Source: Chloroflexus aggregans DSM 9485 (GTDB lineage: Bacteria > Chloroflexota > Chloroflexia > Chloroflexales > Chloroflexaceae). Taken from it: DNA of 64,000 nt. The stretch's first letter is position 1, and each line of letters opens with the position of its first letter. A program made the translations under genes and the position numbers. This document shows positions 2,994 through 64,000 of the stretch, piece by piece. The stretch covers positions 1,563,353 through 1,627,352 of the forward strand of contig NC_011831.1 in NCBI RefSeq assembly GCF_000021945.1, written 5' to 3'. A model generated the notes under the pieces. That model was not told the DNA's origin and searched no databases. It saw nothing but the letters and a program-made list of their open reading frames with translations.

Positions 2994-2996
2994 GCC

Positions 2997-4033: not shown

Positions 4034-4212
4034 TACCAGCCTCCTCTTCGGTATTCAGCAACGGCGACCGAACGTGAGATAACGAACAGATAGTTGCCGG
4101 TAGTATCGCTGCGTGCGGTAGACAAATATGCCTCGATACCTTTTCCGCAACCGCAAGAGCAAGAGGGTGAGCGGGAGCAGTCATCACAACTCCCGCTCGT
4201 CCCGACGACGCA

Positions 4213-5274: not shown

Positions 5275-5312
5275 ACAACCTCCTTCATAAACGTATATCC
5301 ACGCGCGACTAG

Positions 5313-14052: not shown

Positions 14053-14162
14053 ACTCCACCTTGTTACACCGCCAAGGCTGAACACCTTACCTTGCTCGCC
14101 CCGTCTCTTAGCCCGATGAACATCCACAGGCGAAGCGATACCGAACGCAGCGACGAGCCAAC

Positions 14163-16284: not shown

Positions 16285-16382
16285 GATACCTGGCACGGCA
16301 ACGTTTGCCTTACGGTATCACCGGTCAGCTAGACCGCGTTTTATAAGGTTGTAGTTCAGAAACACAACTACAGGAGCAAACC

Positions 16383-16718: not shown

Positions 16719-16782
16719 GGTTGGTATCGGGTACGAAGCCCGTGGCGTGATTGGTACAAACAGGATCGCAAAGGAGCAGAGC

Positions 16783-17910: not shown

Positions 17911-17984
17911 AGCTGTCCGAGCGGTAGAGGCGTAACGACGCAATAGCGTGTCTGTACACGCAGGTTATCGCCTACCGGCCTTGG

Positions 17985-18016
17985 CGGCAGGAGTTGGTCC
18001 TGCCGTCAGGGGTTCT
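17985..18016 (+). terminator. Hairpin between acsF and bchH
   Basis: CGGCAGGA and TCCTGCCG (17985-17992 with 17998-18005) form an 8-bp stem with a five-base loop, followed by GGGGTTCTCTTTT. The T-tract is imperfect, so it may only attenuate or protect a processed acsF message. It lies in the 154-base acsF-bchH gap. Confidence 0.45.
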
Positions 18017-18064
18017 CTTTTGCTTGAACACCGGTTCTGCCTATACAACTGGTGAGGAAGACCA

Positions 18065-21000
18065 ATGCACTTCGTGGTTCTAACTATCGACGGTAATCAT
18101 CGCCCGGCGCTGCTGGCAGCCGCCGACCGTCTTCGGCGCGAACACAAGGTTACGCTGAGCCTGGCGGTGTACGATGCGGCGACTCTGCGTGATGCAGCGG
18201 GATGGGCACAGCTCGATCGTGATTTAGCGATTGCCGATTTTGTCTTTGGCGCACGACTATTTAGTGAAGAGTTGGTGCGTCCGCTGGCCGAACGGCTGGC
18301 CCACTACGAAAAGCCAACCCTGATTATTACCTCCAACCCGGCATTGATCCGCTGTACCCGCATCGGAGGCTTCTCCCTGCGTCGCGAGAGCGATACCGAG
18401 CCGGGACCACTACGACGGTGGGTGCAAAAACTCCGTCCTCAAGGCGGGGCCGGTGAAGCGCGGCGCCAGTTGGCAATTTTGCGCAACCTGAGCAAGGTGT
18501 TGAAGGTTATTCCCGGCACGTCACGTGATCTCTATACCTATATCACCAGCCACCAGTATTGGCTGAACGCTTCGCCGGAAAACCTCTACCGTTTGCTCTG
18601 TGTCTTGATCGCACGCTACGGCCCGCAGCCGCGCCCAAAGCTCCCCCAGCTCGATCCGCTGAGTTACCCTGAAACCGCACTGTACCATCCTGATGCACCG
18701 GAGTTATTTGCCTCACTGAACGATTATCGCCGTTGGCGCGGTAAGCGTATTCCCAAGGGTGGCAGCGTTGGCATCTTGACCCTGCGCACGGTTGTCCTGA
18801 GTGGTAATACACCTCACATTGATGCGCTGGCAAGGGCCATCGAGGCCCGTGGGCTAGAGGCTCGCATTGCCTACGCCGCCGGTCTCGATCTACGACCGCT
18901 GCTCGATAAAGAGCTGGCCGATGTTGATGTATTGGTCAATGCAACCGGCTTTGCCCTGGTTGGTGGTCCTGCCGAGAGCCAACCGCAGCAAGCTGCCGAG
19001 GCCCTCACCCGCTTCGACCGACCGTATCTGGGGTTGGTGCCCTTGGCTTTTCAGCGTATCGATGACTGGCGCGCCGATGATAACGGTCTCACGCCGGTGC
19101 AGCAGGCCTTAAGTGTGGCGATTCCCGAACTCGAAGGTGCTGCCGAACCGTTGATCTTCGGTGGGCCGGCAGCCGACGGGCAGCGCTTCGCACCGGCTTC
19201 AGCCGAAATCGAACAAATTGCCGACCGGATCGTCCGTCGGGTTGCGTTGCGACGCATGCCCAATGCGCAGAAGCGGCTGGCAATTGTCATCTATAACTTC
19301 CCCCCGGCTCTTGGTACCGTTGGTACGGCGGCCTATCTCGATGTGTTTGCCAGTCTGTATCACCTGCTCAAAGCCCTCGCTACCGATGGTTATCACGTTG
19401 AGGTGCCACACAGTGTCGATGAACTGCGCCATCTGTTGTTGGCCGATGGCCCGGCACAAGGGGCCGATGCCCACATCGCCGATTGGCTGAGCGCCGATGA
19501 GTATCGCCGTCTCTTCCCGGCCTATACCGAGATCGAACCGTATTGGGGTCCGGCGCCGGGTGAATTGTGGCGAGATCAGCGCGGTATTCGGATTCTTGGC
19601 CGCCAGTTTGGCAATGTGTTTATCGGAGTGCAGCCCAGTTTCGGTTACGAACGTGACCCGATGCGGTTGCTCCTCGCCAAAGATGCTGCGCCGAACCATG
19701 CTTTTGCCGCTTTCTACACATGGATTACGCACAAATTCCGGGCCGATGCGGTGATCCATCTTGGCACCCATGGCGCGATGGAGTTTATGCCCGGTAAGCA
19801 AGTTGGACTGAGCGCGCGTTGCTGGCCGCTGCGCTTAATCGGTCCACTCCCTAACTTTTATGTCTATAGCGTCAACAACCCCAGCGAAGCAGCGATTGCG
19901 AAACGACGCGGGGCGGCGACGCTGGTCAGCTATCTCGTTCCGCCGGTACAACAGGCCGGTCTCTACAAGGGGTTACGGGTGTTACGAGATACCATCGACC
20001 AGTACGAACGCCAACCCGATCCTGCGCTGCTGGCCGATTTGCGTGATCGGGCAGCGCAACTAGGTATTCCAATGGCGAACAGTGGTGATGACCAGGCCGA
20101 CGTGGCCGGTCTTGCCCACGAGCTGCTACGCATCGAGCAGCGTATGATCCCGCTCGGCTTGCACGTCCTTGGGCAACCACCTGCACCGGCGGAACTGGCC
20201 GACTTTTTGTGGCTCTACGCCAGCCTCCAACCCGGTGGTGGTTTACCGACCCTGATTGCCCAAGGTATGCGGATCGATTATCAACAGCTTTGTGCGCGGC
20301 TGAGCAGTGATCTGGCGGCACAACAGCAGATGCGCGCGATAGAGGCGCGCGGGAGAGCGGCAATGCTGGCCTATGCCGAAGCACCGAACGCTGAAGCCGG
20401 CGCCCATGCTGCTGCAGCGCACCTTGCCGATCTCGTACCGGCGGCGGCCTTGAAGCCCCTGTGGCCAAAATTGGCCGAATTACGCGCCGGCTTGCTCGCC
20501 AATAACGAGTTACGCAACTTGTTGCACGGCCTACGCGGTGGTTTCATTCCGCCATCGCCCAGCAACGACGCAGTACGCAACCCGGCCGTTCTCCCAACCG
20601 GTCGGAACCTCTTTGCCCTCGATCCGTATCGCGTACCCACCCCGGTATCGATGCAGCGTGGCGAAGCGTTGGCAAACGAACTACTCGCCCGTCTCCGCGC
20701 TGAGCAAGGCGCTTGGCCGCAGAGCATCGCAATTGTACTGTGGGGTACCGATAACCTTAAGAGTGATTGCGAAGGGGTCGCACAGGTCTTGGCCCTGATC
20801 GGCGCCCGTCCGGTGATCGACGAACTCGGTAACGTGGCAGATGTTGCGCTGCGTCCGCTGACCGAACTCGGTCGCCCCCGTATTGACGTGGTTGTGACGG
20901 TGAGCGGTATTTTCCGCGACCTGCTCGGCAACCAGATGCGCTTGATCGACCGCGCCGCGTATCTGGCCGCTACCGCCGACGAACCGGCAGAGTGGAACTT

Positions 21001-49415: not shown

Positions 49416-51509
49416 TTACACATCTTTATTGATAACGTAATATGGCTGAATAGAAGTTTTTACTATGACATCTTTTTGTCTTTTTCCTTCTAAATACTGA
49501 TAATAGAGTTCTTTATATGCATCTACTTGATTTCTATATTTTCTCATTTCTTCTCTCAGAAATCCTGCAACGTATCCCTTTATTTCATCCGGTACATCTT
49601 TCATTTGGAATTCTGACGGATCACCTCCACATTGCCTGTCAAACCATGCTTTAAACTGTCCCCCCCAAGGCTGGTCAAAACAGCGAGAGAGATCAATCGG
49701 TTTGTAATCGACAATATAGTGCTTATCCCCTCTAATAACAACTTTATCGAGTTCTACATAATCACCGTCACCTTTAGGCACTTTCAGCTCAACAAACCGT
49801 TTACCGTTGATAAAATCTTCTGGATGCCTTTGTAATTCAACGATTTGCGCTACACGATGAGTAAAAGTACCTCTAACACTAGAGGGTATTTCCGCTGCGT
49901 CGCATTGTTTTGCCACGTAGGTTAATAGAGAGACCAAATCTTTCGATCTATCGTCAGGTAGTAAACTTTCATACGATAAGTCGTACTTGCTCAATGCTTC
50001 ATCGAGCTTTTCAATATACCGATCACAAGTCTCCTCTAAAGCTTCTCTGCTTATGAATTGCGCTTCCACCGGCTCGGCCTCATCGACCACCGGCTCGGCC
50101 TCATCGACCACCGGCTCGGCCTCATCGACCACCGGCTCGGCCTCGTCCACCACCGGCTCGGCCTCATCGACCACCGGCTCGGCCTCATCGACCACCGGCT
50201 CGGCCTCATCGACCACCGGCTCGGCCTCATCGACCACCGGCTCGGCCTCATCGACCACCGGCTCGGCCTCATCGACCACCGGCTCGGCTTCGTCCACCAC
50301 CGGCTCGGCCTCATCGACCACCGGCTCGGCCTCATCGACCACCGGCTCGGCTTCGTCCACCACCGGCTCGGCTTCGTCCACCACCGGCTCGGCCTCATCG
50401 ACCACCGGCTCGGCCTCATCGACCACCGGCTCGGCCTCGTCAACCACCGGCTCGGCTTCGTCCACCACCGGCTCGGCTTCGTCCACCACCGGCTCGGCCT
50501 CATCGACCACCGGCTCGGCCTCATCGACCACCGGCTCGGCCTCATCGACCACCGGCTCGGCCTCATCGACCACCGGCTCGGCCTCATCGACCACCGGCTC
50601 GGCCTCATCGACCACCGGCTCGGCCTCATCGACCACCGGCTCGGCCTCATCGACCACCGGCTCGGCCTCGTCCACCACCGGCTCGGCCTCATCGACCACC
50701 GGCTCGGCCTCATCGACCACCGGCTCGGCCTCATCGACCACCGGCTCGGCCTCATCGACCACCGGCTCGGCCTCATCGACCACCGGCTCGGCCTCATCGA
50801 CCACCGGCTCGGCCTCATCGACCACCGGCTCGGCCTCGTCAACCACCGGCTCGGCCTCATCGACCACCGGCTCGGCCTCATCGACCACCGGCTCGGCCTC
50901 ATCGACCACCGGCTCGGCTTCGTCCACCACCGGCTCGGCCTCATCGACCACCGGCTCGACGTCGTCCACCACCGGCTCGGCCTCATCGACCACCGGCTCG
51001 GCTTCGTCAACCACCGGCTCGGCCTCATCGACCACCGGCTCGGCTTCGTCAACCACCGGCTCGGCCTCATCGACCACCGGCTCGGCTTCATCGACCACCG
51101 GCTCGGCCTCATCGACCACCGGCTCGGCCTCATCGACCACCGGCTCGGCCTCATCGACCACCGGCTCGGCCTCATCGACCACCGGCTCGGCCTCATCGAC
51201 CACCGGCTCGGCCTCATCGACCACCGGCTCGGCCTCATCGACCACCGGCTCGGCCTCATCGACCACCGGCTCGACGTCGTCCACCACCGGCTCGGCTTCG
51301 TCAACCACCGGCTCGGCTTCATCGACCACCGGCTCGGCCTCATCGACCACCGGCTCGGCCTCGTCCACCACCGGCTCGGCCTCGTCCACCACCGGCTCGG
51401 CCTCGTCCACCACCGGCTCGGCCTCATCGACCACCGGCTCGACCTCATCGACCACCGGCTCGACGTCGTCCTCTTCCTTACCTAGGAAATCATTTTCTGA
51501 GCTTGTCAT
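49416..51509 (-). CDS. Repeat protein: 66 EPVVDEA heptapeptides plus C-terminal PD-(D/E)XK-like domain
   Basis: The protein has 697 residues from the ATG at 51509. A TTG at 51542 would add 11, and neither has a strong ribosome site. Residues 17-481 are 66 uninterrupted copies of EPVVDEA plus a final EPV, strongly acidic and without Gly or aromatic residues. Residues 482-697 are globular and include THRVAQIVELQ, ELDKVVIRGDKHYIVDYKP (D588, D601, K603) and RNQVDAYKELY (Q661, Y665). A histidine helix, an Asp, a DxK strand and QxxxY in this order match RecB/Cas4-type PD-(D/E)XK nucleases. A REase-fold toxin domain is an alternative. It is the last gene of the seven-gene AT-rich cluster, 56 bases after the HerA-like ATPase. 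No known homologue is recalled. Confidence 0.8.
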   Translation of the reverse strand: MTSSENDFLGKEEDDVEPVVDEVEPVVDEAEPVVDEAEPVVDEAEPVVDEAEPVVDEAEPVVDEAEPVVDEAEPVVDDVEPVVDEAEPVVDEAEPVVDEAEPVVDEAEPVVDEAEPVVDEAEPVVDEAEPVVDEAEPVVDEAEPVVDEAEPVVDEAEPVVDEAEPVVDEAEPVVDEAEPVVDDVEPVVDEAEPVVDEAEPVVDEAEPVVDEAEPVVDEAEPVVDEAEPVVDEAEPVVDEAEPVVDEAEPVVDEAEPVVDEAEPVVDEAEPVVDEAEPVVDEAEPVVDEAEPVVDEAEPVVDEAEPVVDEAEPVVDEAEPVVDEAEPVVDEAEPVVDEAEPVVDEAEPVVDEAEPVVDEAEPVVDEAEPVVDEAEPVVDEAEPVVDEAEPVVDEAEPVVDEAEPVVDEAEPVVDEAEPVVDEAEPVVDEAEPVVDEAEPVVDEAEPVVDEAEPVVDEAEPVVDEAEPVVDEAEPVVDEAEPVEAQFISREALEETCDRYIEKLDEALSKYDLSYESLLPDDRSKDLVSLLTYVAKQCDAAEIPSSVRGTFTHRVAQIVELQRHPEDFINGKRFVELKVPKGDGDYVELDKVVIRGDKHYIVDYKPIDLSRCFDQPWGGQFKAWFDRQCGGDPSEFQMKDVPDEIKGYVAGFLREEMRKYRNQVDAYKELYYQYLEGKRQKDVIVKTSIQPYYVINKDV
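50067..51461 (-). repeat. 21-bp in-frame tandem repeat encoding EPVVDEA (66.4 copies)
   Basis: There are sixty-six 21-base units plus 9 bases, without a single indel. Most copies are identical at the DNA level. Variation is mainly synonymous (Ala-Glu written GCCTCA/GCCTCG/GCTTCG on the plus strand, Asp or Val third bases), and three units near the ends or middle read DDV or DEV instead of DEA. The array is far more GC-rich than the gene around it. Confidence 0.98.
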
Positions 51510-51565
51510 TTCGTTTGTCTTATCAGAGCGTATAGAATACAACCAGTACAGAAGGTACTGTTTAA

Positions 51566-54301
51566 CTAACCAAAGATTAATTTAAAGTATTTTGGATATG
51601 GTCGAGTCAACCGGTAAAGGAACCATTTAATAGCTCTTCTATCATCAGGCTTTATTTTTTTATTGGATTTGTTCGAAAGATATTTACCAGTTATATCAAA
51701 AAGTTGTTCTAAATTCTTCTTTCCATCTGACACTTGCTGTAGACAGTCAAATAGTTCTGGTGGAAACTTGAACCCTGACACTACTCTACCTCTCTCTTTT
51801 TGTTCAAACCTTCCCATGCTCAAAAAAACTTCATCCACTTCACTTCGTATATCACTCTGCAACTTAATCGGTATCACCCGAATCAATGCTGGTTGACTTA
51901 GACCCTCACGAAAAACGATGGCCTGACCACGCTGTAGCGTAGTGGCAAATCGACTTTGCCGCTCATTGAAATTCATGGCTGCTCCAAGAATGTCACGGTC
52001 CTCACGCGCAGTAAGACGGTGCATGATTTTGAGATTCGTATTTTTAATTGCTTCTGGGATAAGCTTTGATGGCAGCTGCTCAACAATCACTAACCCTTCA
52101 CCACGTGAACGAATTTCAGCCAACATATCAGCAAACAATTCAATGGCCTTACCACGCGTATTAGCTGAACCTTCCTTGCTCTCTCGTGTTACATTTTCCA
52201 GTAATACGTGTGCTTCTTCGATTAACGTTACGTGGCGAAGTGATTCACTATTCGTTTGCTGTTCATAATATTCATACATTGCCATTAAGATAAAAGCCAT
52301 GATCAGTGCTTTCTCTTCTTTGTTGCCAATTTGATTGAGCTGAATGATTGTTGGCTTTTGCAGAATATCCTTTAATCTATTCTCAAAAGAAGGAAATCCC
52401 TTATTCCGAGGCTGCAAAATACTACCTATAATCCCCTTTTGGAGATGTTGCAAACGTAACTCAATTGCTGCTTTTAAATTGCTTTTAAGTTCACCTTTAT
52501 ATCCAAATTTATCAATCGTTTCTTTAGCTTTCACAAGATCATCAAGCGAAGGCACATCTTCATCAGCTAAATCCTGCTCTATTGGTACAGAGTCACTAAT
52601 AAAGAACGACTTTTCTGCGAACTTCTCTCGATAAGCTTCATACAGAACTTCTTTTAGCAGCATGCTTTGCACATCACTGAGAGGAAAAGCTGCTTCGAAA
52701 CACGAGGTAAGGTAACTAAGATGAGTGTTTAGGCTAACCCCCTTTCGGATGTAGAATGGATTAAACCAGATTGGGTCATCAAATCTCCCCGGTACAAAGA
52801 AGTCAGGATAGGGAGGATCAGCTATTTCATCGGCAAAAGCCAAATCACCATATTCAGATTTTACCGGTTCAATAACCAAATACGGTACTTTATGCCTGTG
52901 TAGCTCAGTGATAAGCCGTTTACTTGTAGTTGATTTACCACTACCGGTCGAGCCGGTTATCAAAACATGCCTCGTTAAATCATCGAGCGAGATAGAAGCA
53001 ACTCGTGATTTGTCCAACAAACCAATTCGACTGTCGATATACTCTCCAATCTTGATATACTTGATACTATTATGAGCAGCATCTTCTTCTTCAAGCTGCC
53101 ACGAAGTGAAAGGGTTAGCCGGAAATGATCTAACACCGGGAATCCCACCTGGTGGCAAGATTGGCAATTGCAACAATGCTGCGGCACCAATATCATCAAT
53201 AATCAGACGCGCAGGGTCATCATCAGATCGTTCAGGTGTATCAAGACGAATGAATCGCACATTATTGACCGGCAATTTATCAATATCTACCTCGCACCGG
53301 TAACATTGATAGCTAACTATGCCAGCACTGCGCGGACGCAACCTATCGGTAACAGCGCGATCAATGACCGGATCAATAGTCCGATCACTCGGCACAGCCG
53401 CATGCACTCGCCAGCGGAACAAAGAATCTTTCGACTGAATTATACGCTGCGCAGCATTCTTTACTATTTCAAGTTGAAATTTTGGTGTCTTACTTCCCTC
53501 ATTTATCAAATAAAGCCAATAATCTAGCAATGGCTTATTCATAGGATATAACTTATCTTTGAGAATGTCTACCAAAATCTTTCGAGGGTCATCATCCCGT
53601 AAACCGTTCACAGTTATTGAGAGATTTATTTCAACTCTTTCTAATAGTTTCTGCCAGTTTTCTAGAACATTGGTCACATTCTCATCGACTTCGATAGGGG
53701 CAACAGTAAATCCAATCATAATGGGACAAGCCTGTTGGAGAAGTGTTCGTAGTAAAGTGTGCGAGCCGTCTGTACTCAATTCAGGTGCCACCCAGCAATT
53801 TGCAATTTCAGCGCCTAACGTAACTAGAAACGGGCTTTGAACCCATTCATAGTATGTCAAACTCATTGGCTCCCGAAACGGCTGTTCACAAATCTGCTGC
53901 ACCTCTTCACGTGTAAGCATACGCAAGCGAAAGTCGAGATCATACGGAAAGGCGTTATGAAATTGTCGCCAGACTAGTTCCGGATCACCAGCGTTTTCAA
54001 CACTTACAAGGTAAAATAGCCGTAAACGCTGCGGTGCGTGCGGGTCGCAGACCATACGCAATTCGAATTGCGCGGTACCTCGCAAAAAACTAAGTGCATG
54101 CACAAATGTTTTCTGTCGCTCAATCACTTTCTGCATCAACTGGTTTTGCTCCTCTAACGACAATCCTTCATCCCAGAAATCAGGCAACCCATCGACCTCT
54201 GCTCCAAAAATCGCGCGTGGTGTTATAAATTCGTTATTTTTCGGTTCCCAAAATTTGTTATTTTTCGGTTCCCAAAAAGTCTGATCGAACCCATGTTGCA
54301 T
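51566..54301 (-). CDS. HerA/DUF87-type ATPase
   Basis: The protein has 911 residues from the ATG at 54301 with GGGAGG six bases upstream. Residues 1-420 are a large unassigned region. It is followed by Walker A GSTGSGKST (450-458, K456), then EPVKSEYGDL typical of HerA/VirB4-like ATPases, and Walker B HVTLIEEAH (E695/E696). LADMLAEIRSRGEGLVIVEQ (sensor region) and an arginine in LTAREDRDIL follow. Members form hexameric rings that move DNA or polypeptide. The family often sits beside nucleases in repair and defence loci, and a nuclease-like protein gene follows here. A 24-bp in-frame duplication (FWEPKNNK twice, about residues 9-25) marks the N-terminus. No membrane segment is evident. Confidence 0.88.
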   Translation of the reverse strand: MQHGFDQTFWEPKNNKFWEPKNNEFITPRAIFGAEVDGLPDFWDEGLSLEEQNQLMQKVIERQKTFVHALSFLRGTAQFELRMVCDPHAPQRLRLFYLVSVENAGDPELVWRQFHNAFPYDLDFRLRMLTREEVQQICEQPFREPMSLTYYEWVQSPFLVTLGAEIANCWVAPELSTDGSHTLLRTLLQQACPIMIGFTVAPIEVDENVTNVLENWQKLLERVEINLSITVNGLRDDDPRKILVDILKDKLYPMNKPLLDYWLYLINEGSKTPKFQLEIVKNAAQRIIQSKDSLFRWRVHAAVPSDRTIDPVIDRAVTDRLRPRSAGIVSYQCYRCEVDIDKLPVNNVRFIRLDTPERSDDDPARLIIDDIGAAALLQLPILPPGGIPGVRSFPANPFTSWQLEEEDAAHNSIKYIKIGEYIDSRIGLLDKSRVASISLDDLTRHVLITGSTGSGKSTTSKRLITELHRHKVPYLVIEPVKSEYGDLAFADEIADPPYPDFFVPGRFDDPIWFNPFYIRKGVSLNTHLSYLTSCFEAAFPLSDVQSMLLKEVLYEAYREKFAEKSFFISDSVPIEQDLADEDVPSLDDLVKAKETIDKFGYKGELKSNLKAAIELRLQHLQKGIIGSILQPRNKGFPSFENRLKDILQKPTIIQLNQIGNKEEKALIMAFILMAMYEYYEQQTNSESLRHVTLIEEAHVLLENVTRESKEGSANTRGKAIELFADMLAEIRSRGEGLVIVEQLPSKLIPEAIKNTNLKIMHRLTAREDRDILGAAMNFNERQSRFATTLQRGQAIVFREGLSQPALIRVIPIKLQSDIRSEVDEVFLSMGRFEQKERGRVVSGFKFPPELFDCLQQVSDGKKNLEQLFDITGKYLSNKSNKKIKPDDRRAIKWFLYRLTRPYPKYFKLIFG

Positions 54302-54337: not shown

Positions 54338-55495
54338 CTAAGAGGTTTTACGCCCGCGCAAATATGTAATCACCCGTTGGATAACATTGACAACATCACC
54401 GGAAAGATCGCCGTTCCATATCCGTGTAGGGTTTGGTGTCGTGCCGACAAGGACTCTAATGACCTTATTGCCCGAAAGTTGCAACTTTATATATTGAGAT
54501 GGTTCATCAAATGATATAAGATAGTCATTATTCTGCTTTCTAACATCACGAACACCTGCGATTTCTCTAATCTTTGTAACTATCGGGTCTTGCAACACTT
54601 GCAACATCGGCGGCTCCCTCATCGGCGACGGAAGTCTAGGAGACGGCGAGAAATGCTCAATCAATTTCTCAAATTGCTCACGTGATGCGTGAGCGGCAAG
54701 AATTTGCGCGAGTGAACTAGCCGAATTCGGATCGATCAGCGAAATAGCTGCTGGTATAAGTTCTGGCGGCAGGCTCAACAGAGACTGAATCTTCTCAAGC
54801 AAACGACGCTGTTCTTTTTCAGCCATCTCTGCATCGATAAGCCTGATCCTTCTAATGTGCTCGGCCTGTAGTTCAAGCTTCAATTTCTCAACTCCCAGGA
54901 GACGTTCAATCTCAATTTTAATTTGATCGCGCTGTCTGCGTTGTTCTAAACTTAACTGATGCTCATCATATACTTTTTGCGCTGCAACATTGGCCTGTGC
55001 AATAGCCTGTACCCTTCCGATCAATTCTACCACCTGCGCAGTCTTAACAGACAACCGATAGCCATTACCATCAACAGTACCTTCAATCTGTTCCAGAATA
55101 TCAACATGCTCTTGACTAAAATCAGCAGTATTATAATGTCGAACCATGCTTCGCAACTTTTTTTTCAGATCGCCAAAAACCATTTGGCTAATTTCATCGG
55201 GTTTGTAACAAAGTAATTCGTTTCCATGAATAAGCTCGTACATTACATCAATATCACCGACTAGAGATTGCCTATCCCGCAAAAGCACATCACCATCCCC
55301 AAGAATAACGGTAAATAATGCTCGCTTCCGCAAACCTTTAAACCGCTTTTGCCACAAAAATTGTACTATACTCTGAACGCGTTTCCAGGACCCCGTCTCT
55401 TCCTCATACAACTCGTAGTCGTTATCTTTTATTTTTTGCAAAAAACCGCTAGTTTTCTCATCAATCATCAGTTCCGGATCGTTGACAAATCGCAT
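54338..55495 (-). CDS. Coiled-coil protein of unknown function
   Basis: The protein has 385 residues from the ATG at 55495, with AAAGGA eight bases upstream. The frame to 55531 is less likely. The N-terminal third contains an alpha/beta-looking part with FTVILGDGDVLLRDRQSLVG. The middle is a long charged coiled coil (about residues 150-250, RRQRDQIKIEIERLLGVEKL). A Pro-rich hinge (SPSPRLPSPMREPPM) leads to a C-terminal domain of about 100 residues. The layout loosely resembles SPFH/band-7 proteins, but I cannot assign a family. It lies between a small membrane protein and the HerA-like ATPase (36-base gaps), so it may connect the membrane and ATPase parts. Confidence 0.75.
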   Translation of the reverse strand: MRFVNDPELMIDEKTSGFLQKIKDNDYELYEEETGSWKRVQSIVQFLWQKRFKGLRKRALFTVILGDGDVLLRDRQSLVGDIDVMYELIHGNELLCYKPDEISQMVFGDLKKKLRSMVRHYNTADFSQEHVDILEQIEGTVDGNGYRLSVKTAQVVELIGRVQAIAQANVAAQKVYDEHQLSLEQRRQRDQIKIEIERLLGVEKLKLELQAEHIRRIRLIDAEMAEKEQRRLLEKIQSLLSLPPELIPAAISLIDPNSASSLAQILAAHASREQFEKLIEHFSPSPRLPSPMREPPMLQVLQDPIVTKIREIAGVRDVRKQNNDYLISFDEPSQYIKLQLSGNKVIRVLVGTTPNPTRIWNGDLSGDVVNVIQRVITYLRGRKTS

Positions 55496-55530
55496 AGAAA
55501 TGTCCTTTCTCGCTAGAAGTTGAACAACCA

Positions 55531-55917
55531 CTACGATGCTACGGTCAGGTTTCGTTCACCAAGGAGAATCCCTTGCAGAGCGCTAACTGCAAGCAAGATA
55601 GCACCGCCGCGGTGATAATCGCTATCTGCAATGAAGAAGCTGAAGGCAAAGATAATCGCAACTACATCCCAAAATCGTGTTGTGCCACTCGAAGATCCCC
55701 ATGTTGCAAGCTGCGCGCCAAGGTCTGGCTGAAAAACGCACAACGAATACAACCCTGCAACTAAGAGTACAAATATAATACCATATACCAACCAGAAATT
55801 CCATCCTATTTCGATGAAACGTTGATTTACACCCGTGATATCAAGCAACCATGCCATACACGAGGTGGCAATACTAACCACGTATAGATTGACATCTTTC
55901 CAAGTTATTTTTCTCAT
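55531..55917 (-). CDS. Small integral membrane protein of unknown function
   Basis: The protein has 128 residues with three to four hydrophobic helices: about 10-27, 38-62 (WNFWLVYGIIFVLLVAGLYS), 83-97 (VVAIIFAFSFFIAD) and 105-118. No motif is recognised. Its ATG shares a base with the stop of the large tubulin-like gene upstream (TAATG), so the two proteins are translationally coupled and may form one membrane complex. Confidence 0.78.
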   Translation of the reverse strand: MRKITWKDVNLYVVSIATSCMAWLLDITGVNQRFIEIGWNFWLVYGIIFVLLVAGLYSLCVFQPDLGAQLATWGSSSGTTRFWDVVAIIFAFSFFIADSDYHRGGAILLAVSALQGILLGERNLTVAS

Positions 55918-58900
55918 TATGGCTCCTTTACAACAATGACGAGTGGCTCAAGTAGTACCTTATTATTACTATCTTGAATGTACCCGCGTCGAACACGGCA
56001 CTTGATGGTACCGCCTGGCAAACTCTGATCGGATTCTTCGCCAATCGCCGTACCGTGAATTTGTGGATCGTAGCGTTCGCCTCGCTCAGGCACTAGTGGT
56101 CGAATGTGATTACGAGCCAACCAACCATCAATTAATCGGAATATGTCGCTCAAGCAATGACGCACCCTATCGGCGAGCGCTGGATTATCGTAAACATAGC
56201 AAAGCCCCTTTAAAGCTTTCACTACATCCTCTGGGTTTGGAGTAAGACTTTGTTGTAAAAGCGGTCGTATTTGCTCTTCTACTTGTTCTAATTCCAGCTC
56301 AATCCATCGATCTGCCACGTTACTACGAGCAGCATCGAGAAGATTTTGGATATTGTGTCCCACTTTATCAAAGCTATCGTTCATCTTCTCATCTCCTGTA
56401 ACGCCATCGGTTGGCTGTGAGACCGCCAAATGAGCAAAGTCTCCAGCTATCGCTTGAGCATCTTGGCCAGTTTGATCCGGCATTGCCGATTGAGCTAAAC
56501 CACCCTGCTCCAGACTCGCTAGCTGCGACAAGACCGACGGTGTGACAGTTTGGGTTGCCGCTTGCGAAACAAACATCCAACGGTTGTGCATCTCTGACCA
56601 GCGGGTAAGCTGAGCTGGCTTAAAACCGCCTATAATTCGAACCAACATGATTCGGTATGGATCAGCCCAACTAAGTAGCTCACACATACCTAAATTCTGT
56701 ACAATCTGCAGCGCAATCAGGTTCCTACGACCTTCTGAAGCTAGTAGGCACATCATTTCTATCGGTAGGTTTTGAGCATCATCAGCCAAGGTAAAAATCG
56801 GCTGCACAATCTTCACCCATGGTACACTCGATTTACTGATCCGCATTGCCCATTCTTCAAGGTTCTGAGTAGCAAGATACGTACTTATTGGGCGAATATG
56901 ATGATCTTTTACTACATCGCCTATCTGTCTTCTCACATTATCAAACACTTCTTCTTTCGTGATTAGAGTAGGCCACACATTGTTCAGATCAGCATGGTCG
57001 TGAAGCCAAGAAGTAACTAGTGGTCGTCGATGCCGTTGGATTGCAGCTTCTACATCATAGTGGAAGGATTGAATTAACTCCTTAAGGTCAACAACAGAAT
57101 ACTCTTGATACGTCTCCTCCGGCGGCTCCTCTGCGAAACGTGCATGTTGTTGCTCTAGCTCAGCATGCAAGCGTTTAAGCTCCGCTTTCAAGTAATATTC
57201 GAGCCTACCTTGCAGTCGAGTAAGCACTTTTAGTCGCATTAGAATCAGTGCTTCCACTAGTTGGGTCTGCTGTTCTCTACAAACGTATTGCCTCGCCCAG
57301 AATAAGTATAGACGAACTACGAACCATGGCAACAATGTGATGATTGCTAGTCCGCCTAGACACAGAATGATCAAACCCACCGCTGTACTGCGAATTGCTG
57401 CCTCTGATCCCTCACCCAACATTGCCCGCAGTAAGTCTAATGGCGGTCTGTAAATGCCTTGTAATAAACCATCGTAGTAGAACTGATAACACACTATGCC
57501 AATCAAGAAGACACGTAGCAGAAGCGCTTGCGGACGAGGAAAGAACGGTGTTACGTTCTTTACTCGTTCTAGCGGTGAAACTCGCTGTACCGAGCGCCAA
57601 CCCTTCTTGAGACGATTAAGCACATCTTCTTGTATGGATAGCTCTTTCTTGGTTTCAATAACGGCGTTTCTGACCTGCTCAATGATGCTTTCCGTTAATC
57701 TTATTGCTCTGACCAATCCTTGCTCACCAGTACGTAATTGAGTCTGAATAGCTTCATCACATATTTTCTCTATTGAACGTAAACAGTCTTTATAATCACG
57801 AATAGTTTCACGAAACTGTCTAAGAAAACTATCTATCTGGCTATTTTCACTGTCGATTCGTTCGTCGATTGTTTGTAACGACTCGTCAGGACTCAGCAGG
57901 TCTGGCCCGCGAATATACAACGATACCTGCGGTATACGGATACGACTGAGACTTTGCAATAGACGGCGTGAAGAGAACCGCCCATACCACCGAACAAATA
58001 CCTGCGGTATACGGATACGACTGAGACTTTGCAATCGGTCAACGTTATTCACTATGGTTACAACGATTTTTCCTTTCTGCTTCGTCTGCCCAATTTCATA
58101 TTCTTTTGTTAACTCAAGACGGTTTTGATTTTCTGCTACATCCGATTGATACCGTCTCCTAACGGCGTTTAGAACCGCTACGTTCAACTCCTGCTGAATT
58201 TTCTGCTGAATTTCTTTTTTGAGATCGTCCCATCTCAATTGCTCAGCCTCTGTCAGCAAACGGACACGCACTAAGTTGGCAACAATAGTGTTGGTCAGAT
58301 TATCATATAGCCTGACCAACGGTACAACAAGCGATGAAATACCTATTCCAATGTATAACGGATGATGAGTCGGGCAATCAGCAGTATATGAACGATCAAT
58401 TATTGACAGCAAATCACTATGCAAACATGCTTCGATCATATCACTGATAAGCTGAACTATTTCCGCTGGATTATAGGTTGCCGGACTTGTTGCATTATTT
58501 TGCTTTACATTATCAATCAAAAATACTTTATCAAAGCTAATTTTCTCTGGAATAAGATCGCATGCAAATACACGTGCAAATGTTTGCTGCCAATCTGGTG
58601 ATTGTGCAAGCCTGTTACCTTCCTCCAACAATTCATATGTCAGGGCATCTCGTTCCAGTGCCTTGCGTTTACCATCCTCCCACTGTGCAGTAACAAATAC
58701 TCCGACCAGCTCATAATCATACGGATCACCAAACAGGAAGCGGATCAGATACGCTAATGGCCACAGCAATGCGCGACCTTCCGGTGACCACGTTGCACCA
58801 ATAACGAAGACGGTTGGTCGGACATGATCGGTTAGTGACAACTTAATATGTGCGCGCACCTTGTGATAATGTGACGCAATCTGTTGAGCATGATCGGTGA

Positions 58901-59168
58901 GTGTTTCGCGAGTGAGAAAACGTTGCCGATGCTCTTCAAATGACAATTTTTCCCAATCAGGCAACTCACTGACATCGGAAGGGAGCATCCAGAAGCAAAC
59001 ATCGGTTACATCTGTAATGAGCGGTGAATAAAACTCTTTGTACGTTTTGTAACGACGTTCCCATTCATCACGGATCAACCAGCCAATCTCGCCCAACCCT
59101 ACTATTATTGTAGGTTGCAACGAGTACAGCGAACGCTCTTGGTCAATTGATCGATACAATACATTCAT
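55917..59168 (-). CDS. Divergent tubulin-like protein with coiled coils and two membrane helices
   Basis: The protein has 1083 residues from the ATG at 59168. The frame to 59228 would overlap the upstream gene. The N-terminal 350 residues follow the same plan as the tubulin-like protein at 59203: TIIVGLGEIG (24-29) against TLVIGLGGTG, FDKVFLIDN against FDTVFLVDR, and IGIGISSLVVPLVRL against IAGVSTASLVLPVRP. Where the partner has the nucleotide loop CGGTGSG, this protein has ATWSPEGR (125-132), so GTP binding is probably lost. Charged coiled coils follow, then two membrane helices (about 545-565 and 591-620) and a long cytoplasmic tail with another coiled coil. I infer a membrane-anchored pseudo-tubulin partner. 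Confidence 0.72.
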   Translation of the reverse strand: MNVLYRSIDQERSLYSLQPTIIVGLGEIGWLIRDEWERRYKTYKEFYSPLITDVTDVCFWMLPSDVSELPDWEKLSFEEHRQRFLTRETLTDHAQQIASHYHKVRAHIKLSLTDHVRPTVFVIGATWSPEGRALLWPLAYLIRFLFGDPYDYELVGVFVTAQWEDGKRKALERDALTYELLEEGNRLAQSPDWQQTFARVFACDLIPEKISFDKVFLIDNVKQNNATSPATYNPAEIVQLISDMIEACLHSDLLSIIDRSYTADCPTHHPLYIGIGISSLVVPLVRLYDNLTNTIVANLVRVRLLTEAEQLRWDDLKKEIQQKIQQELNVAVLNAVRRRYQSDVAENQNRLELTKEYEIGQTKQKGKIVVTIVNNVDRLQSLSRIRIPQVFVRWYGRFSSRRLLQSLSRIRIPQVSLYIRGPDLLSPDESLQTIDERIDSENSQIDSFLRQFRETIRDYKDCLRSIEKICDEAIQTQLRTGEQGLVRAIRLTESIIEQVRNAVIETKKELSIQEDVLNRLKKGWRSVQRVSPLERVKNVTPFFPRPQALLLRVFLIGIVCYQFYYDGLLQGIYRPPLDLLRAMLGEGSEAAIRSTAVGLIILCLGGLAIITLLPWFVVRLYLFWARQYVCREQQTQLVEALILMRLKVLTRLQGRLEYYLKAELKRLHAELEQQHARFAEEPPEETYQEYSVVDLKELIQSFHYDVEAAIQRHRRPLVTSWLHDHADLNNVWPTLITKEEVFDNVRRQIGDVVKDHHIRPISTYLATQNLEEWAMRISKSSVPWVKIVQPIFTLADDAQNLPIEMMCLLASEGRRNLIALQIVQNLGMCELLSWADPYRIMLVRIIGGFKPAQLTRWSEMHNRWMFVSQAATQTVTPSVLSQLASLEQGGLAQSAMPDQTGQDAQAIAGDFAHLAVSQPTDGVTGDEKMNDSFDKVGHNIQNLLDAARSNVADRWIELELEQVEEQIRPLLQQSLTPNPEDVVKALKGLCYVYDNPALADRVRHCLSDIFRLIDGWLARNHIRPLVPERGERYDPQIHGTAIGEESDQSLPGGTIKCRVRRGYIQDSNNKVLLEPLVIVVKEP
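57923..58035 (-). repeat. In-frame 75-bp duplication with identical 38-bp copies
   Basis: The same 38 bases occur at 57923-57960 and 57998-58035 in direct orientation, a period of 75 bases (25 codons). This repeats LQSLSRIRIPQV within the pseudo-tubulin gene. The identity suggests a recent duplication. Confidence 0.95.
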
Positions 59169-59202: not shown

Positions 59203-61494
59203 CTACACCAAATCCGGCAACCGGCCATCGCTCCAGTTCTTATGAATATGAAGCGTTTCCTTCTGGGTCTTCATGAAATACTCATATGCCTTTTTCAATT
59301 CAGGCAGGTCGCGAAGATCGGCGATTCGATAACCAAAGCTAATAACCAGCACATCTATTCGATTAGGGGTTCCGGTATCTACATGGTAGTAGCTATCAAA
59401 ATCAGAAAGTACACTATCAGGATCGTGCCTTTCCGCCGAGGTAAGTAAAGGACTGTATCCAATCAGACGTTGTACTTCAATATCACTCGCGTGCTCAGTT
59501 CCCAAACGAGCATTGTCAATACGTAGGAAAGGCTTTTCGGAGCGTAGCTTCAGATGTCGCAGTGGATCAATGGGTGATCCTCTCGATTCAGTGCTTGTAT
59601 TGCTATAGTATTGAATATTGTTGTAGAACCACCGAAGATAACGAATGGCAGTCCAACTCTCACTAAGCATCGGGTTAACAAAGCCTTGAACGGTCTCTAG
59701 ATAGGCCTTAACCGGATCATGATTAGGTGGATGATCAAGAAACAGCTTATGTTCACCCTTCTCAAACTTGTAAACGAGGTTAAAGACTGCATGCAGGCCA
59801 ACCTCATTAATCAGTTTAGCTCTGTTATCACCTGACAGTGATGCTAAAGAAAAGACAAATCGATCAATTGGCCATTGTGCATTCGGCAAATTACCCGGTG
59901 CAGGTACCTCGCGTTCGTAACCCAACTCTGTTACCAACTCAAAGAGACTCAGATTGTTCTGCGGCGATTTTGGTTCTGACATTGATTGCGGACGAGAAGG
60001 AACAACGTTAGATAATTGTTGCTGCATCATAGCATGCCAATCCTCATAATAAAACCTTAACTTCCTTACAAAATCGCTCACATTTTTTATCGAAGCGATG
60101 TTTTTTCTGATATGATTGATCACTGCATCTACCGGTGATTCGCTTACATGGTTTTTACCAAAAATTTTTCGTTTAAATCTATTTAACCAAAAGTCATCCG
60201 GGTCATCCGGCTCTAATTGAATTTCTGAAATAACAGATGCAACATGGTCAAGACCTTTCTCTGTATATAAATCTTTCAGCTTTTGTTGCAGCTCTTTGTA
60301 GAGTTTTTCAACATTTTCATCTGTTAATTCTTCTTGCAACCACTTATTTATTGATTCTTGAATGTTTTTTAACGAATCCTTAACAGTACTGTTTTGTTCT
60401 TGCAAAATATGCTCTTGCAAGATTCGCATTCCCATCATCTCAACATGCACTTGTACTGGACGAACCGGAAGCACAAGTGACGCCGTTGAAACCCCAGCAA
60501 TAGCCAAAGCAAACTTGTTCTGCTGCTCGCTAGCAAGATCGTTCAGATTCTCACGCTTGCTAGCCGCCTCACGACCAATTGGAGTGACCGTATCAAGGTA
60601 GATAACTTGACCAATCATTTGCTTGACTTCATCAATACTGCTCAACCCTTCACTACCATTGTCGCGATCAACAAGAAAGACTGTGTCGAAGGGTCGACGT
60701 ACATACATCACCTGTTTAGCGCCATCCGGAGTCTGGTAGGCATAGTCTGGAAAGGTAGCTTCAAATTGCTGCTGACCGCTCAGATAGTAATTCAGTTCTT
60801 TCAGTGCTGCATAGGCATTGCCTTGAATGCGTAAACGTTGAACATAGCTGGCAATCTCTTGTAAAAATACCGATGGCATAACAAAAACACCACAAATTTC
60901 GCCATCGTCACCTAGCTTACTGCGAACCCGAAACGCTACATCGAGCAGCAAACCCGAACCGGTACCGCCGCAGAGCGATGACACAATATACACTCGCACT
61001 TGACCTGTGCGTTCGGTGCGGATTCCTTGCTTCTCTACCTGCTCATTCTCGGCAATTTGCCGAATCTTGTCAAGCTTGGTATCAAGACGGTGAGCAAACT
61101 GTCCCCAACGAGCATACAACGACAAGCGACCGACTAATCGACGCTGACGTGCGCCACGGAAGATTGATCCTGTCACTACTTGACCATTTGGCCACCAATC
61201 CTTGATATGCGGATGCTGATCTAGATGATCCAGTACCTTCCCCGCATTGAAGTCACCAATATAGGCAATCTCACGGTCAAGAATTCGTTCTTCACCGGGC
61301 ATATTCTGGGGCATCTCTGTATCAACGACGAGGAACTCTAACACACCCGGCATCGGTTGCATTGACTGACGGATGCGACGTTTGAGCTGCCGGATGACAT
61401 CGACTCCAGTGCCGCCGAGACCGATGACAAGAGTAGGTCTGATAAATAGGGCAGATGGAATATAAACTTGAGTCGGCTGCAATGTTGTAGTCAT
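59203..61494 (-). CDS. Bacterial tubulin-like GTPase (Tubulin_2-type)
   Basis: The protein has 763 residues. It carries PTLVIGLGGTGVDVI (about 20-34), the first beta strand and nucleotide loop of the tubulin/FtsZ superfamily. YIVSSLCGGTGSGLLLDVAF follows (CGGTGSG at 175-181), the tubulin signature. FDTVFLVDRDNGSEG near 275 and ASLVLPVRPVQVHVEMMG near 340 complete a GTPase domain. The last 400 residues are a helical and alpha/beta extension absent from FtsZ. It is clearly not the cell-division FtsZ. It should bind GTP and polymerise or act as a switch at the membrane. It sits 46 bases after the Ig-like/VWA gene and 34 bases before the degenerate tubulin gene. Confidence 0.86.
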   Translation of the reverse strand: MTTTLQPTQVYIPSALFIRPTLVIGLGGTGVDVIRQLKRRIRQSMQPMPGVLEFLVVDTEMPQNMPGEERILDREIAYIGDFNAGKVLDHLDQHPHIKDWWPNGQVVTGSIFRGARQRRLVGRLSLYARWGQFAHRLDTKLDKIRQIAENEQVEKQGIRTERTGQVRVYIVSSLCGGTGSGLLLDVAFRVRSKLGDDGEICGVFVMPSVFLQEIASYVQRLRIQGNAYAALKELNYYLSGQQQFEATFPDYAYQTPDGAKQVMYVRRPFDTVFLVDRDNGSEGLSSIDEVKQMIGQVIYLDTVTPIGREAASKRENLNDLASEQQNKFALAIAGVSTASLVLPVRPVQVHVEMMGMRILQEHILQEQNSTVKDSLKNIQESINKWLQEELTDENVEKLYKELQQKLKDLYTEKGLDHVASVISEIQLEPDDPDDFWLNRFKRKIFGKNHVSESPVDAVINHIRKNIASIKNVSDFVRKLRFYYEDWHAMMQQQLSNVVPSRPQSMSEPKSPQNNLSLFELVTELGYEREVPAPGNLPNAQWPIDRFVFSLASLSGDNRAKLINEVGLHAVFNLVYKFEKGEHKLFLDHPPNHDPVKAYLETVQGFVNPMLSESWTAIRYLRWFYNNIQYYSNTSTESRGSPIDPLRHLKLRSEKPFLRIDNARLGTEHASDIEVQRLIGYSPLLTSAERHDPDSVLSDFDSYYHVDTGTPNRIDVLVISFGYRIADLRDLPELKKAYEYFMKTQKETLHIHKNWSDGRLPDLV

Positions 61495-61540: not shown

Positions 61541-64000
61541 CTAGCTCAAAGCGAATATAGGAGAGACCATTAAGACCAACAATAGCCAGAGAAAAAATTG
61601 GGCCAGTCCACTAGTGTATGGTTTATACTCAACAGATTTACTATCAATTACTTGTTTCTCACCGAGACGAAGTACTTTTTTTGCTGATGGAGATAATACT
61701 TTAATTTTGCGACCAGGTAACGCCCTGATACGTAGCTCGTTGAATTTTCTAAGATTCTTCACCTCTCTACCATCAACAATAACTTTTCCGTGCTGGACAG
61801 GAAAGATATACAACACAAGGAAAACTACAAGAAAAAATATCCCTAAAACAATAATTGCCGGTACTATTCCTCTCCACAGATATTCCCACCATCCATACAC
61901 CTGAACCTGAACTACTAATTGTTTTGGCTCATTATCTTTACTGAAGACAGGATCGCTTGTTAGCGTCACTGTGTAAGTACCACTATTGAAAAATAACCAT
62001 CTGTTAAGACGAAGCTCAACTGTCTTAATGAATGTATTCTTGCTGATTCGTGTTTCATCTATCCACTGTGTAACAAACGTATCTGGCGAGTAACGCTCAG
62101 TATCTTTCTTAACCAATTCCACCCTAGGTGGTTGATAAGTGACCGGTATCTTATCATCGAAGCTCACAGTTGCAGTAAGCGGAATGGTTAACGTAGGTTG
62201 CCAAAATGGCAGCCAAAATCCCCAAATCGCCGAAAACGTATCGCTTGGTGGAGCAATCAACTCAACCACTGTACTCTTTTTTTCGCCCCTCACCACTATT
62301 CTCGGTGAAGGGTTGATCATTACTGGCGGGTCAGTTTTCAACTGCACACTAACTTCATATTCACCAGGAGGTAATGATGAATCAAATCTAACATCGACTT
62401 GATAACGGCGAGTATCGCCGTCTGGTGATGGTGGTTCCGGTTGAAGAGATGCATAACTACTAGGATAGGTTTGGTTCGACCCTCGCACCGACTCAACGAT
62501 AAATGTGATTGACGGCCAATTTTCAATCCGACATCCGGTTAGCACCACATGCGTTCGCGCTGCTGACCGAAGAGGTGTGATTGGTCCATCAAAATCGAGT
62601 GCCGTATTTGATATGTTGATTCCAGTCTGCGGTACAGTGAAAGTAATAGGGATACTCTGGAACATTACCTTGTGCTTGTCTGAGTCCACTTTTATATTCA
62701 CGCGATACTGACCTGCTTCCATCCCGTCTGGTAGATTGATTTGAAAGGGACAACGAACCTTCTTATCAGCTACCATAAAGCCTTGTGGACAGAGCGCAAT
62801 ACTGCTCTCGGACAAGGTGTTAACAGACCGTCCGTCACGCGAAATTTCACTCACTTGGAAACGAACTTCGTCGGGTTGCAGCAAGAATGGGGCATTTAGC
62901 ACAATGGTGCCTTCCAGCAACCGATCATCACATCGTATCGTTGGCGCTAATTGACTCTCACTCTCATTCAAACTGATGAACGATGGAACGGTTTCAGGTT
63001 GTTGATCAACTAGTGCAACATTAAACCCAAGATACTCTACTTCAGCAATCACTTTCACGATGTATTCACCGCTAGTAAGTAATGGCTTCGTTTGAACACG
63101 GTTCCCATCAAATGGCACTAAATCATTATAGTTACTCGGTCCGGTAACGTACATTGATGTATTTTTATGACCTTCTGGCAAATTAGCTTCAACTGTGAAC
63201 GAACCATCTGAATTATGTTCGACAGAAGTAATGGTTACATTCATTTTTGGATCATTCGGTAGTACTCGAACAGTAAAGCACTTCCAAAGGGAGAGCGCAT
63301 TAACCGGTGCGAACTCAACCGTGACGTACACGTATTCCGAGTCTTTTCCGATATCTTTCAGAATAGTCCACAGAGTAGTATCGGGACCCTTTTCAAGCGG
63401 TAGGACACGACTGTCAGCTTGATCGCGGCTGTCCAACGGACATTGCTGCAAATTTACACGCAATCGCACATCCTGAGTTTGCAGCACACCATCAACTGTG
63501 AAGCCAATCAAAGTGTTCTGACCACGAATTAGTGCTGGGTTCTTTAAACCGGGATAGCGAGGACGAATGCGAATATCAGATCGAAAGAAGGTGAATGCAC
63601 TAATCGATTCAGTTGGGACGTTGGCAGTAAACTGCCATGCACCTGCAATATTAGTGCCAACGTCAGCTTTGTAGCGAGCTGTAACGTAATTTTCATTTTC
63701 CTGAATGTCATACTCTTTTACCCCATTCGGCCTTTGTTGTTCAGTAATTTTAGGCGTTTGATTAAAAATGCCCTCGTTTGGGTAGAAAACAAATGTTACA
63801 TCAGCAAGACGCTGCGATGAAGCTACACTCGCTTGAAAGATCGTTTGATCGCGATCAGGATTACCACGCGGATTTTCAACATCAATATAGACACCCGGCT
63901 GTAAATCAGTTATCACCTTCGCAAAGGCACGAGCGATACTTGCCGGATCATCAATCTCGATTACAGTTTGTTTGTTATCACGAAATATTTGTAGTGTCTT
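61541..64000 (-). CDS. Membrane protein with Ig-like repeats and probable VWA domain (5' end cut by window edge)
   Basis: There are 819 visible residues with no start. The frame continues past 64000, so the GTG at 63916 is not the true start. The first visible part, VIEIDDPASIARAFAKVITD, is the usual end of a von Willebrand A domain in bacterial VWA-membrane proteins. Several beta-rich Ig-like repeats follow (for example LPEGHKNTSMYVTGPSNYND and LPPGEYEVSVQLKTDPP). A membrane helix (IVPAIIVLGIFFLVVFLVLY, about 710-730), a small soluble segment with DGREVKNLRKFNELRI, and a final hydrophobic helix (FFLWLLLVLMVSPIF) end the protein. Most of it should be extracytoplasmic. It is the first gene of the cluster seen here, 46 bases before the tubulin-like gene. 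Confidence 0.7.
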   Translation of the reverse strand, partial: KTLQIFRDNKQTVIEIDDPASIARAFAKVITDLQPGVYIDVENPRGNPDRDQTIFQASVASSQRLADVTFVFYPNEGIFNQTPKITEQQRPNGVKEYDIQENENYVTARYKADVGTNIAGAWQFTANVPTESISAFTFFRSDIRIRPRYPGLKNPALIRGQNTLIGFTVDGVLQTQDVRLRVNLQQCPLDSRDQADSRVLPLEKGPDTTLWTILKDIGKDSEYVYVTVEFAPVNALSLWKCFTVRVLPNDPKMNVTITSVEHNSDGSFTVEANLPEGHKNTSMYVTGPSNYNDLVPFDGNRVQTKPLLTSGEYIVKVIAEVEYLGFNVALVDQQPETVPSFISLNESESQLAPTIRCDDRLLEGTIVLNAPFLLQPDEVRFQVSEISRDGRSVNTLSESSIALCPQGFMVADKKVRCPFQINLPDGMEAGQYRVNIKVDSDKHKVMFQSIPITFTVPQTGINISNTALDFDGPITPLRSAARTHVVLTGCRIENWPSITFIVESVRGSNQTYPSSYASLQPEPPSPDGDTRRYQVDVRFDSSLPPGEYEVSVQLKTDPPVMINPSPRIVVRGEKKSTVVELIAPPSDTFSAIWGFWLPFWQPTLTIPLTATVSFDDKIPVTYQPPRVELVKKDTERYSPDTFVTQWIDETRISKNTFIKTVELRLNRWLFFNSGTYTVTLTSDPVFSKDNEPKQLVVQVQVYGWWEYLWRGIVPAIIVLGIFFLVVFLVLYIFPVQHGKVIVDGREVKNLRKFNELRIRALPGRKIKVLSPSAKKVLRLGEKQVIDSKSVEYKPYTSGLAQFFLWLLLVLMVSPIFALS

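Follow-up and report, generated by a model that had tools for sequence, protein, structure and literature searches.

What does a tubulin-like protein that lacks its GTP (guanosine triphosphate) loop do directly beside a paralogue that has kept one? The question is raised by a locus of Chloroflexus aggregans DSM 9485, in a stretch of 64,000 nucleotides (C1:1563353-1627352 of the complete genome of 4,684,931 bases) that we refer to as the window; positions given below are those of the window, and all the genes described lie on its minus strand. In an operon with a vWA gene, a gene for an active FtsZl1 protein of the Tubulin_2 family (59203-61494, 763 amino acids; Pfam Tubulin_2 E 3e-60, 204.8 bits) is directly followed by an open frame of 1083 amino acids (55917-59168), tubulin-like and without the T4 GTP loop. 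We call its product the pseudo-tubulin. From its profile match and its 95% identical copy at a second locus, L006, it appears to be a degenerate FtsZl1 (Tubulin_2) paralogue, and on balance we lean towards the view that it is a partner subunit in a module composed of vWA protein, FtsZl1 and pseudo-FtsZl1. The frame is also open further upstream, to an ATG at 59228 overlapping the last part of the preceding gene.

We examined first its kinship with the neighbouring FtsZl1. The tubulin-like N-terminal domain comprises residues ~1-345 (58134-59168). The four landmarks named in the original prediction are present where it placed them: GLGEIG, the T1-loop equivalent (residues 24-29; 59082-59099), GATWSPEGR (124-132), FDKVFLIDN (212-220) and SSLVVPLVRL (278-287). 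A 57-row alignment places them in the same columns as GLGGTG, CGGTGSG, FDTVFLVD and ASLVLPV in the neighbouring protein. The Pfam model Tubulin_2 (PF13809) matched the pseudo-tubulin below cut-off (E 0.21, 11.2 bits vs 27; residues 138-320, profile 162-355). As this value alone is insufficient, homology rests on profile comparison with shuffles and controls. Local hhalign of the single sequence scored 51.4 (E 2e-6) over residues 113-306 with a profile built from 27 active N-termini. With the same profile, the best of 60 shuffles gave 20.9 and the reversed sequence gave 16.4, while residues 401-830 scored 12.8 and residues 651 to the end 19.1; the L006 homologue scored 63.5. A two-row alignment of the window and L006 copies gave 51.5 locally over the same residues, with 60 column shuffles not exceeding 22.5. 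Among 105 control open reading frames (ORFs), 102 scored 26.2 or less; the three higher ones (56.2, 44.5 and 36.5) proved to be previously unlisted partners, each encoded immediately behind FtsZl1 (in L040, L058 and L041).

By these profile comparisons the N-terminal domain of the pseudo-tubulin is homologous to FtsZl1 over residues 113-306, and the paralogy claimed by the original prediction is supported. The statistical match covers this span, residues 1-112 being supported by the T1 landmark and the 57-row alignment; an hhalign over 1-367 (E 2e-9) was made in global mode, in which the span is forced, and is hence no evidence on span. Apart from G000 itself, a search with query P0001 in 301 Chloroflexota genomes returned a single weak match (34%, C-terminal, in G284), and the same search in GTDB contigs found the relative in L006. 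In the viral contigs searched there was no relative of the active protein, and a PDB profile search with the active alignment matched mostly apolipoprotein-like helices, no tubulin or FtsZ.

The original prediction had further held that the nucleotide signature was replaced in the pseudo-tubulin by ATWSPEGR, and this is borne out. When actives and partners were aligned together, GGTG occupied the T4 columns of 27 of 29 active rows, the other two carrying GGTNSG (L042) and GLTGSA (L067), and of none of 28 partner rows. In place of the GTP-binding loop GGGTG(S/T)G of the FtsZl1 family, the pseudo-tubulin reads SPEGRA in these columns (lost loop GATWSPEGR at 58773-58799), and scanning its entire chain revealed no GGTG, so the motif does not lie intact elsewhere; the active paralogue carries CGGTGSG at residues 175-181 (60952-60972, position taken from the L006 copy). 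The sole GGTG in the listed partner chains is found in L053 at residue 173. Partner rows were assigned by gene order and not by motif, with the exception of L072, placed among them although its loop-less tubulin-like gene is the Pfam match itself; excluding it, the count is 0 of 27. Because the T4 loop is lost, we infer that the pseudo-tubulin is non-hydrolysing. A T1-like strand-loop is retained by many partners.

Does this arrangement occur elsewhere? Tubulin_2 matches, 57 in total, were found in 45 of 400 sampled Chloroflexota genomes. We retained 41 loci, namely 40 regions from 35 genomes plus L006, and left out 11 weak matches, which lie in nine other genomes and, once, in G293. ORFs were called mechanically, leaving overextended N-termini in L040, L041 and L053, and two were trimmed by hand for the 57-row alignment; the active gene of L064 is shadowed by a longer frame on the opposite strand. 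With a threshold of 27 against the active profile, chosen after the controls were known, 22 of the 41 loci have a higher-scoring partner downstream (L006, L036, L040, L041, L045, L048-L062, L064 and L065). The loci are not all independent: L051, L052 and L054 are closely related, L006 is similarly near to the window, and L073 (G137:C206) possibly continues L037 (G137:C539). In addition, L046 (7298-17836), from a genome of the window's family, encodes a single chain of 3513 amino acids with both domains, GGTGSA at 193 and AGGMSG at 2605, and the short contig of L073 begins within a partner. The contig ends before the partner position in L037, L038, L047 and L063. Partner-bearing genomes, the fusion included, span six Chloroflexota family labels (f1, f13, f17, f24, f29 and f43).

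Direct comparison linked several partners to active proteins. By phmmer, the L036 partner matched the L036 active protein at 5.1e-40, and partner-to-active matches were also obtained for L064 (4.4e-7) and L061 (4.6e-5). The L036 partner passes Pfam Tubulin_2 outright (61.6 vs 27 bits, profile 175-354), and a profile built from 11 large-group partners matched the active profile with a local E of 2.8e-13. Pairing of an active FtsZl1 with a loop-less tubulin-like partner recurs in the phylum and is not a local oddity. On the short contig of L072, the only tubulin-like gene found (2966-5533) lacks the GTP loop and no active gene was seen. Downstream of the active FtsZl1 of L043 lies a 1569 amino acid vWA protein (14068-18774) with a short Tubulin_2 match under cut-off (residues 739-780, profile 1-43, 23.5 bits).

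Membrane anchoring was another part of the original prediction, which proposed two membrane helices and coiled coils behind the tubulin-like domain. One helix stands: residues 600-618 (57315-57371) are strongly hydrophobic, with a Kyte-Doolittle value of 2.55. The second, residues 542-560 (57489-57545), is borderline at 1.54 and may be a membrane helix; in the L006 copy both segments pass, its equivalent of 542-560 exceeding 1.6. Coiled coils were not confirmed: a crude heptad score gave 5 windows, where shuffles averaged 2.0 and reached up to 7. Mid-chain hydrophobic segments were then counted in the 22 partners: 16 have at least two (starts 508-847) and two have one (L049 and L050), the L058 partner being cut by the contig end. 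The pseudo-FtsZl1 partners are thus likely membrane-anchored in the usual case, as judged from hydropathy. At four loci (L066, L068, L069 and L070) we observed a single long FtsZl1 of 1208-1387 amino acids as called, with an intact GGTGAG loop, a vWA gene downstream rather than upstream and no partner seen; L068-L070 carry at least two mid-chain hydrophobic segments in cis, L066 one. In our view, the best clue to what the partner supplies comes from these partnerless proteins of one genus (L068-L070): with segments of their own, they point to membrane attachment.

Relationships among the two kinds of protein were analyzed with a tree of 54 N-termini, which omitted the L048 active protein and the L074 and L058 partners. 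The window pseudo-tubulin joined the L048 partner (support 98/93), where the tree program flagged a meeting of two long branches; its active neighbour grouped with other actives. Approximately unbiased (AU) tests rejected neither a clade of the window active protein and pseudo-tubulin (p 0.16) nor a clade of all partners (p 0.09). Of the duplication originally proposed, the paralogy holds; a local and recent origin is neither shown nor rejected by the AU test. In 17 cognate pairs, the distances among actives correlated with those among partners (Mantel r 0.92, p 0.0002; permutation maximum 0.568).

From these elements we propose the following scheme. The active paralogue would bind GTP and assemble, and the pseudo subunit would dock on it via retained tubulin-tubulin surfaces. 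Unable to complete a nucleotide site of its own, the pseudo subunit would mark a filament end or start, and it would tether the assembly to the cytoplasmic membrane, beside the vWA protein probably facing outward. Capping or seeding of filaments by the pseudo-tubulin, as first suggested for this locus, is a hypothesis compatible with such a scheme. In this genome the module, together with a co-directional HerA ATPase, would form part of a mobile conflict island, probably directed against invaders. A bolder generalization, which we put forward tentatively and judge distinctly less probable than the partner role itself, is that FtsZl1 may be a two-subunit tubulin with one subunit permanently nucleotide-dead, forming the membrane-bound end or seed, parallel to and independent of alpha/beta tubulin and perhaps arisen repeatedly, whose filaments would work alongside HerA or type III CRISPR (clustered regularly interspaced short palindromic repeats) in mobile islands directed against invaders.

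Several observations weigh against the partner reading. Searched by phmmer against the other partners, the pseudo-tubulin matched the L006 copy only, and against the profile of the large partner group it gave no match (local E 0.23); the L036 partner matched that profile weakly (E 0.012). A single partner family is thus unsupported by direct similarity for the window protein and, since the latter is unlike other partners, 'partner' here groups proteins by where their genes lie, by their homology to actives and by the missing loop. Degeneration from FtsZl1 may have occurred repeatedly. Common ancestry of the species is a confounder of the Mantel correlation. Active FtsZl1 with no partner found occurs in L039, L043, L067 and L075, and L042, L044, L071 and L074 have a large or cut neighbour that fails to score. 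Partners of L041 and L045 are without hydrophobic segments and that of L040 has none at the expected place; segment 542-560 of the pseudo-tubulin itself does not rise above the peaks of the active protein (1.55). The AlphaFold models are too poor to show a fold: the full-length protein with 2 rows gave a mean pLDDT (predicted local distance difference test) of 32.5 and a pTM (predicted template modelling score) of 0.23, and residues 1-350 with 4 rows (both paralogues, window and L006) gave 41.6 and 0.40. The order of strands and helices in the 1-350 model is compatible with a Rossmann/tubulin core at low confidence, and the low-confidence full-length model shows long helices. Finally, the HerA ATPase and its neighbouring 397 amino acid protein occur in the window and L006 only, among the loci examined, and the ratios of nonsynonymous to synonymous substitution rates (dN/dS) near 1 in several genes rest on small counts.

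The most serious alternative, possible if unlikely, is that the pseudo domain does not co-assemble: the protein would be a membrane-bound regulator removing or blocking FtsZl1 subunits, with the tubulin fold as a docking surface. Recurrent pairing and the lost GTP loop fit this equally well, and many partners sit on long branches, with the window protein, L006 copy excepted, unlike any other by phmmer. The single-chain fusion of L046 fits a subunit or anchor better than a detachable inhibitor, and the segments carried in cis by the partnerless FtsZl1 of L068-L070 likewise favour an anchor or subunit.

We regard as doubtful that the pseudo-tubulin is a divergent active enzyme, whose changed loop would still bind nucleotide or another ligand. 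Several partners do possess a Gly/Ser stretch at the T4 place (GPSTSP, GRADSP, GGMSG), and the T1-like strand-loop kept in many of them would suit such an enzyme. The T4 place is however without GGTG in all 28 partner rows, the L053 motif lying 23 residues upstream of the aligned loop, and in its T1 loop the window protein carries a Glu, particular to this genome, at the position of a Gly in the L006 copy (GLGGIG).

Very improbable, in our view, is a generic Rossmann-like pattern with landmarks arising by chance. The Pfam score would allow it, as would Foldseek of the weak 1-350 model, in which short-chain dehydrogenases came first, TubZ ranked 12 and 29, and none reached E<=0.001; it is opposed by the hhalign comparisons with shuffles, reversed sequence, column shuffles and the 105 control ORFs, and by the other partners that match actives directly, down to 5.1e-40. 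A decaying duplicate heading for loss, suggested by the whole-gene dN/dS of 0.90 against the L006 copy, is the least credible explanation and is disfavoured by the intact frames of both copies, by the ~8 substitutions in codons 1-350 (3 synonymous, 5 not) and by the recurrence of loop-less partners across the phylum.

Returning to the partner subunit and its setting, the genes run downstream in the order vWA, FtsZl1, pseudo-tubulin, 128 amino acid protein, 397 amino acid protein, HerA ATPase and repeat protein. The listed frames overlap or are at most 46 bases apart, which suggests that these seven co-directional genes form one operon. The vWA protein (1017 amino acids as full ORF, with weak vWA family matches) occupies 61541-64000 and continues to 64594 past the window edge (L003:894-3947); it has a hydrophobic N-terminus, DxSxS at 41 and strong hydrophobic segments at 910 and 998. 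The 128 amino acid hydrophobic protein (55531-55917) overlaps each neighbour by 1 base and matched no NCBIfam family, and the 397 amino acid protein (54338-55531) was not recognised by Pfam or NCBIfam. The HerA/FtsK-type ATPase (51566-54301, 911 amino acids) matched Pfam DUF87 (E 1.2e-12) and the PADLOC mad8 and HerA models; against the NCBIfam CedD and antiphage HerA models its scores were far under cut-off. In the 40 fetched regions, phmmer at 0.01 found no match for the HerA, 397 and 128 amino acid proteins, which therefore lie outside the common core.

The last gene of the operon encodes a repeat protein (49416-51542). Its 21-bp tandem repeat, in 66.5 copies, spans 50066-51462, with long frames open on both strands, and the GC content of the gene, 60%, is unlike the remainder of the island. 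The C-terminal domain might be a PD-(D/E)XK nuclease; motifs of this kind were seen by eye only, without a PADLOC match and with a best PDB E of 0.53. Compared with HerA/FtsK-anchored capture systems, the locus has the ATPase, and this domain is at most a candidate for a linked nuclease effector. Elsewhere, the same genome (G000) also carries two ordinary FtsZ/tubulin-family genes, at C1:3510294 and C1:2787043 (PF00091 above cut-off).

We then compared the locus with those of congeners. Matches to the flanking peptidase homologue and major facilitator superfamily (MFS) transporter, names assigned from reading their sequences, lie 17,558 bases apart here and 1,033 (G118), 1,066 (G134) and 109 (G052) bases apart in congeners. 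In G206, G267 and G400 they are on different contigs, and G086 has a 39% peptidase match alone, on another contig. Outside the two flanking genes, the corresponding stretches of G118 and G134 show no match to the window. GC content of the HerA, 397 amino acid, pseudo-tubulin, active and vWA genes is 42-45%, against 58% in the window before the peptidase, and a Tubulin_2 match was found in none of 6 congeners. Low GC, absence between the same flanks and the lack of congener Tubulin_2 matches make this 17.5-kb stretch look like a laterally acquired island. The same genes, vWA through HerA, are found at 82-95% protein identity and 44% GC in L006, a contig from a metagenome-assembled genome (MAG). 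This contig is titled Acidobacteria MAG J014 and is perhaps misbinned or recently transferred.

Comparison with L006 showed the tubulin domain of the active protein to be conserved, with a dN/dS of 0.18, in contrast to 1.08 for HerA and 1.14 for the 397 amino acid protein; the mid-chain stretches of the two tubulins gave 1.3 and 2.2, with few changes. This pattern resembles an arms race, from small counts and without a genomic baseline.

A possible conflict context was also seen at other loci. In L040, a vWA-tubulin-pseudotubulin triad lies between type III-D Cas10d/Cas7/Cas5 and a reverse transcriptase (RT)-Cas1 pair, and in L041 the triad is followed by RT and Cas1, a CRISPR array (62 copies in the best repeat family) lying on its other side. 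Neighbours of L036 include a PP2C phosphatase, a Ser/Thr kinase and a vWA-FHA protein; the kinase matched PADLOC PD-T4-6 kinase models (best 2.7e-81), which may reflect merely a common kinase domain. With HerA and the 397 amino acid protein confined to the window and L006, the defence link rests on context, and an anti-invader role of the module is plausible. Mutants have linked the Synechocystis Tubulin_2 gene sll0445 to phototaxis (PMC9880817), so membership of the Tubulin_2 family does not in itself imply a role in defence.

Outside the phylum, plasmids of Allomeiothermus silvanus (L076) and Thermus oshimai (L081) carry a vWA-tubulin pair, a gene of 677-686 amino acids and then brxL, with RecQ-family helicase genes nearby and, in one, an interposed insertion sequence (IS) element. 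Compared as candidate partners, the neighbours in these Thermaceae plasmids (686 amino acids in L076, 677 in L081) gave 28.9 with a combined profile, 18.0 with the active profile and 14.6 reversed, which does not establish them as partners.

How does the module relate to known systems? The FtsZl1 family and its vWA operons were described by Makarova and Koonin in 2010 (PMC2875224), and the operon is of the same type here: vWA gene, FtsZl1 gene and membrane proteins. One figure legend names C. aggregans among its species. The article predicts a membrane-remodelling complex, notes that identifiable T6-H7 elements are lacking in FtsZl1 and leaves filament formation open; archaeal FtsZ paralogues without the usual motifs are mentioned as well. 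In its available sections, most other operon genes are given as lineage-specific without recognisable domains, and neither a degenerate FtsZl1 paralogue nor an explanation of membrane contact appears. The GAP1-N2/DO-GTPase conflict systems (Kaur et al. 2020, PMC7159879) combine tubulin and vWA as here, and their Firmicutes versions contain two tubulin genes with coiled coils; unlike for the pair described here, the available text does not state that either tubulin is inactive. Similarly, CRISPR-linked vWA systems with kinase, phosphatase, transmembrane and tubulin proteins (Altae-Tran et al. 2023, PMC10910872) show the association seen in L040 and L041, and in the accessible part of that report the transmembrane protein is not said to be a tubulin paralogue. 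In the literature searched, with most subscription journals and all supplements outside reach, we found no description of an FtsZl1 partner without GTP loop, which is weak evidence of novelty; apparently, this is a known operon type with a component not described before.

A recurrent degenerate partner, usually anchored, would offer a testable answer to whether and how FtsZl1 forms filaments and to how it contacts the membrane and, if the defence context is true, would place a cytoskeletal filament among the means used against invaders. ARC3 of chloroplasts is a degenerate FtsZ-superfamily member acting on active FtsZ. It and the archaeal FtsZ paralogues are likewise degenerate superfamily members and differ from the pseudo-tubulin in architecture and context. 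In eukaryotic tubulin one subunit is nucleotide-locked, and a bacterial dead tubulin subunit such as that proposed here would be comparable with it.

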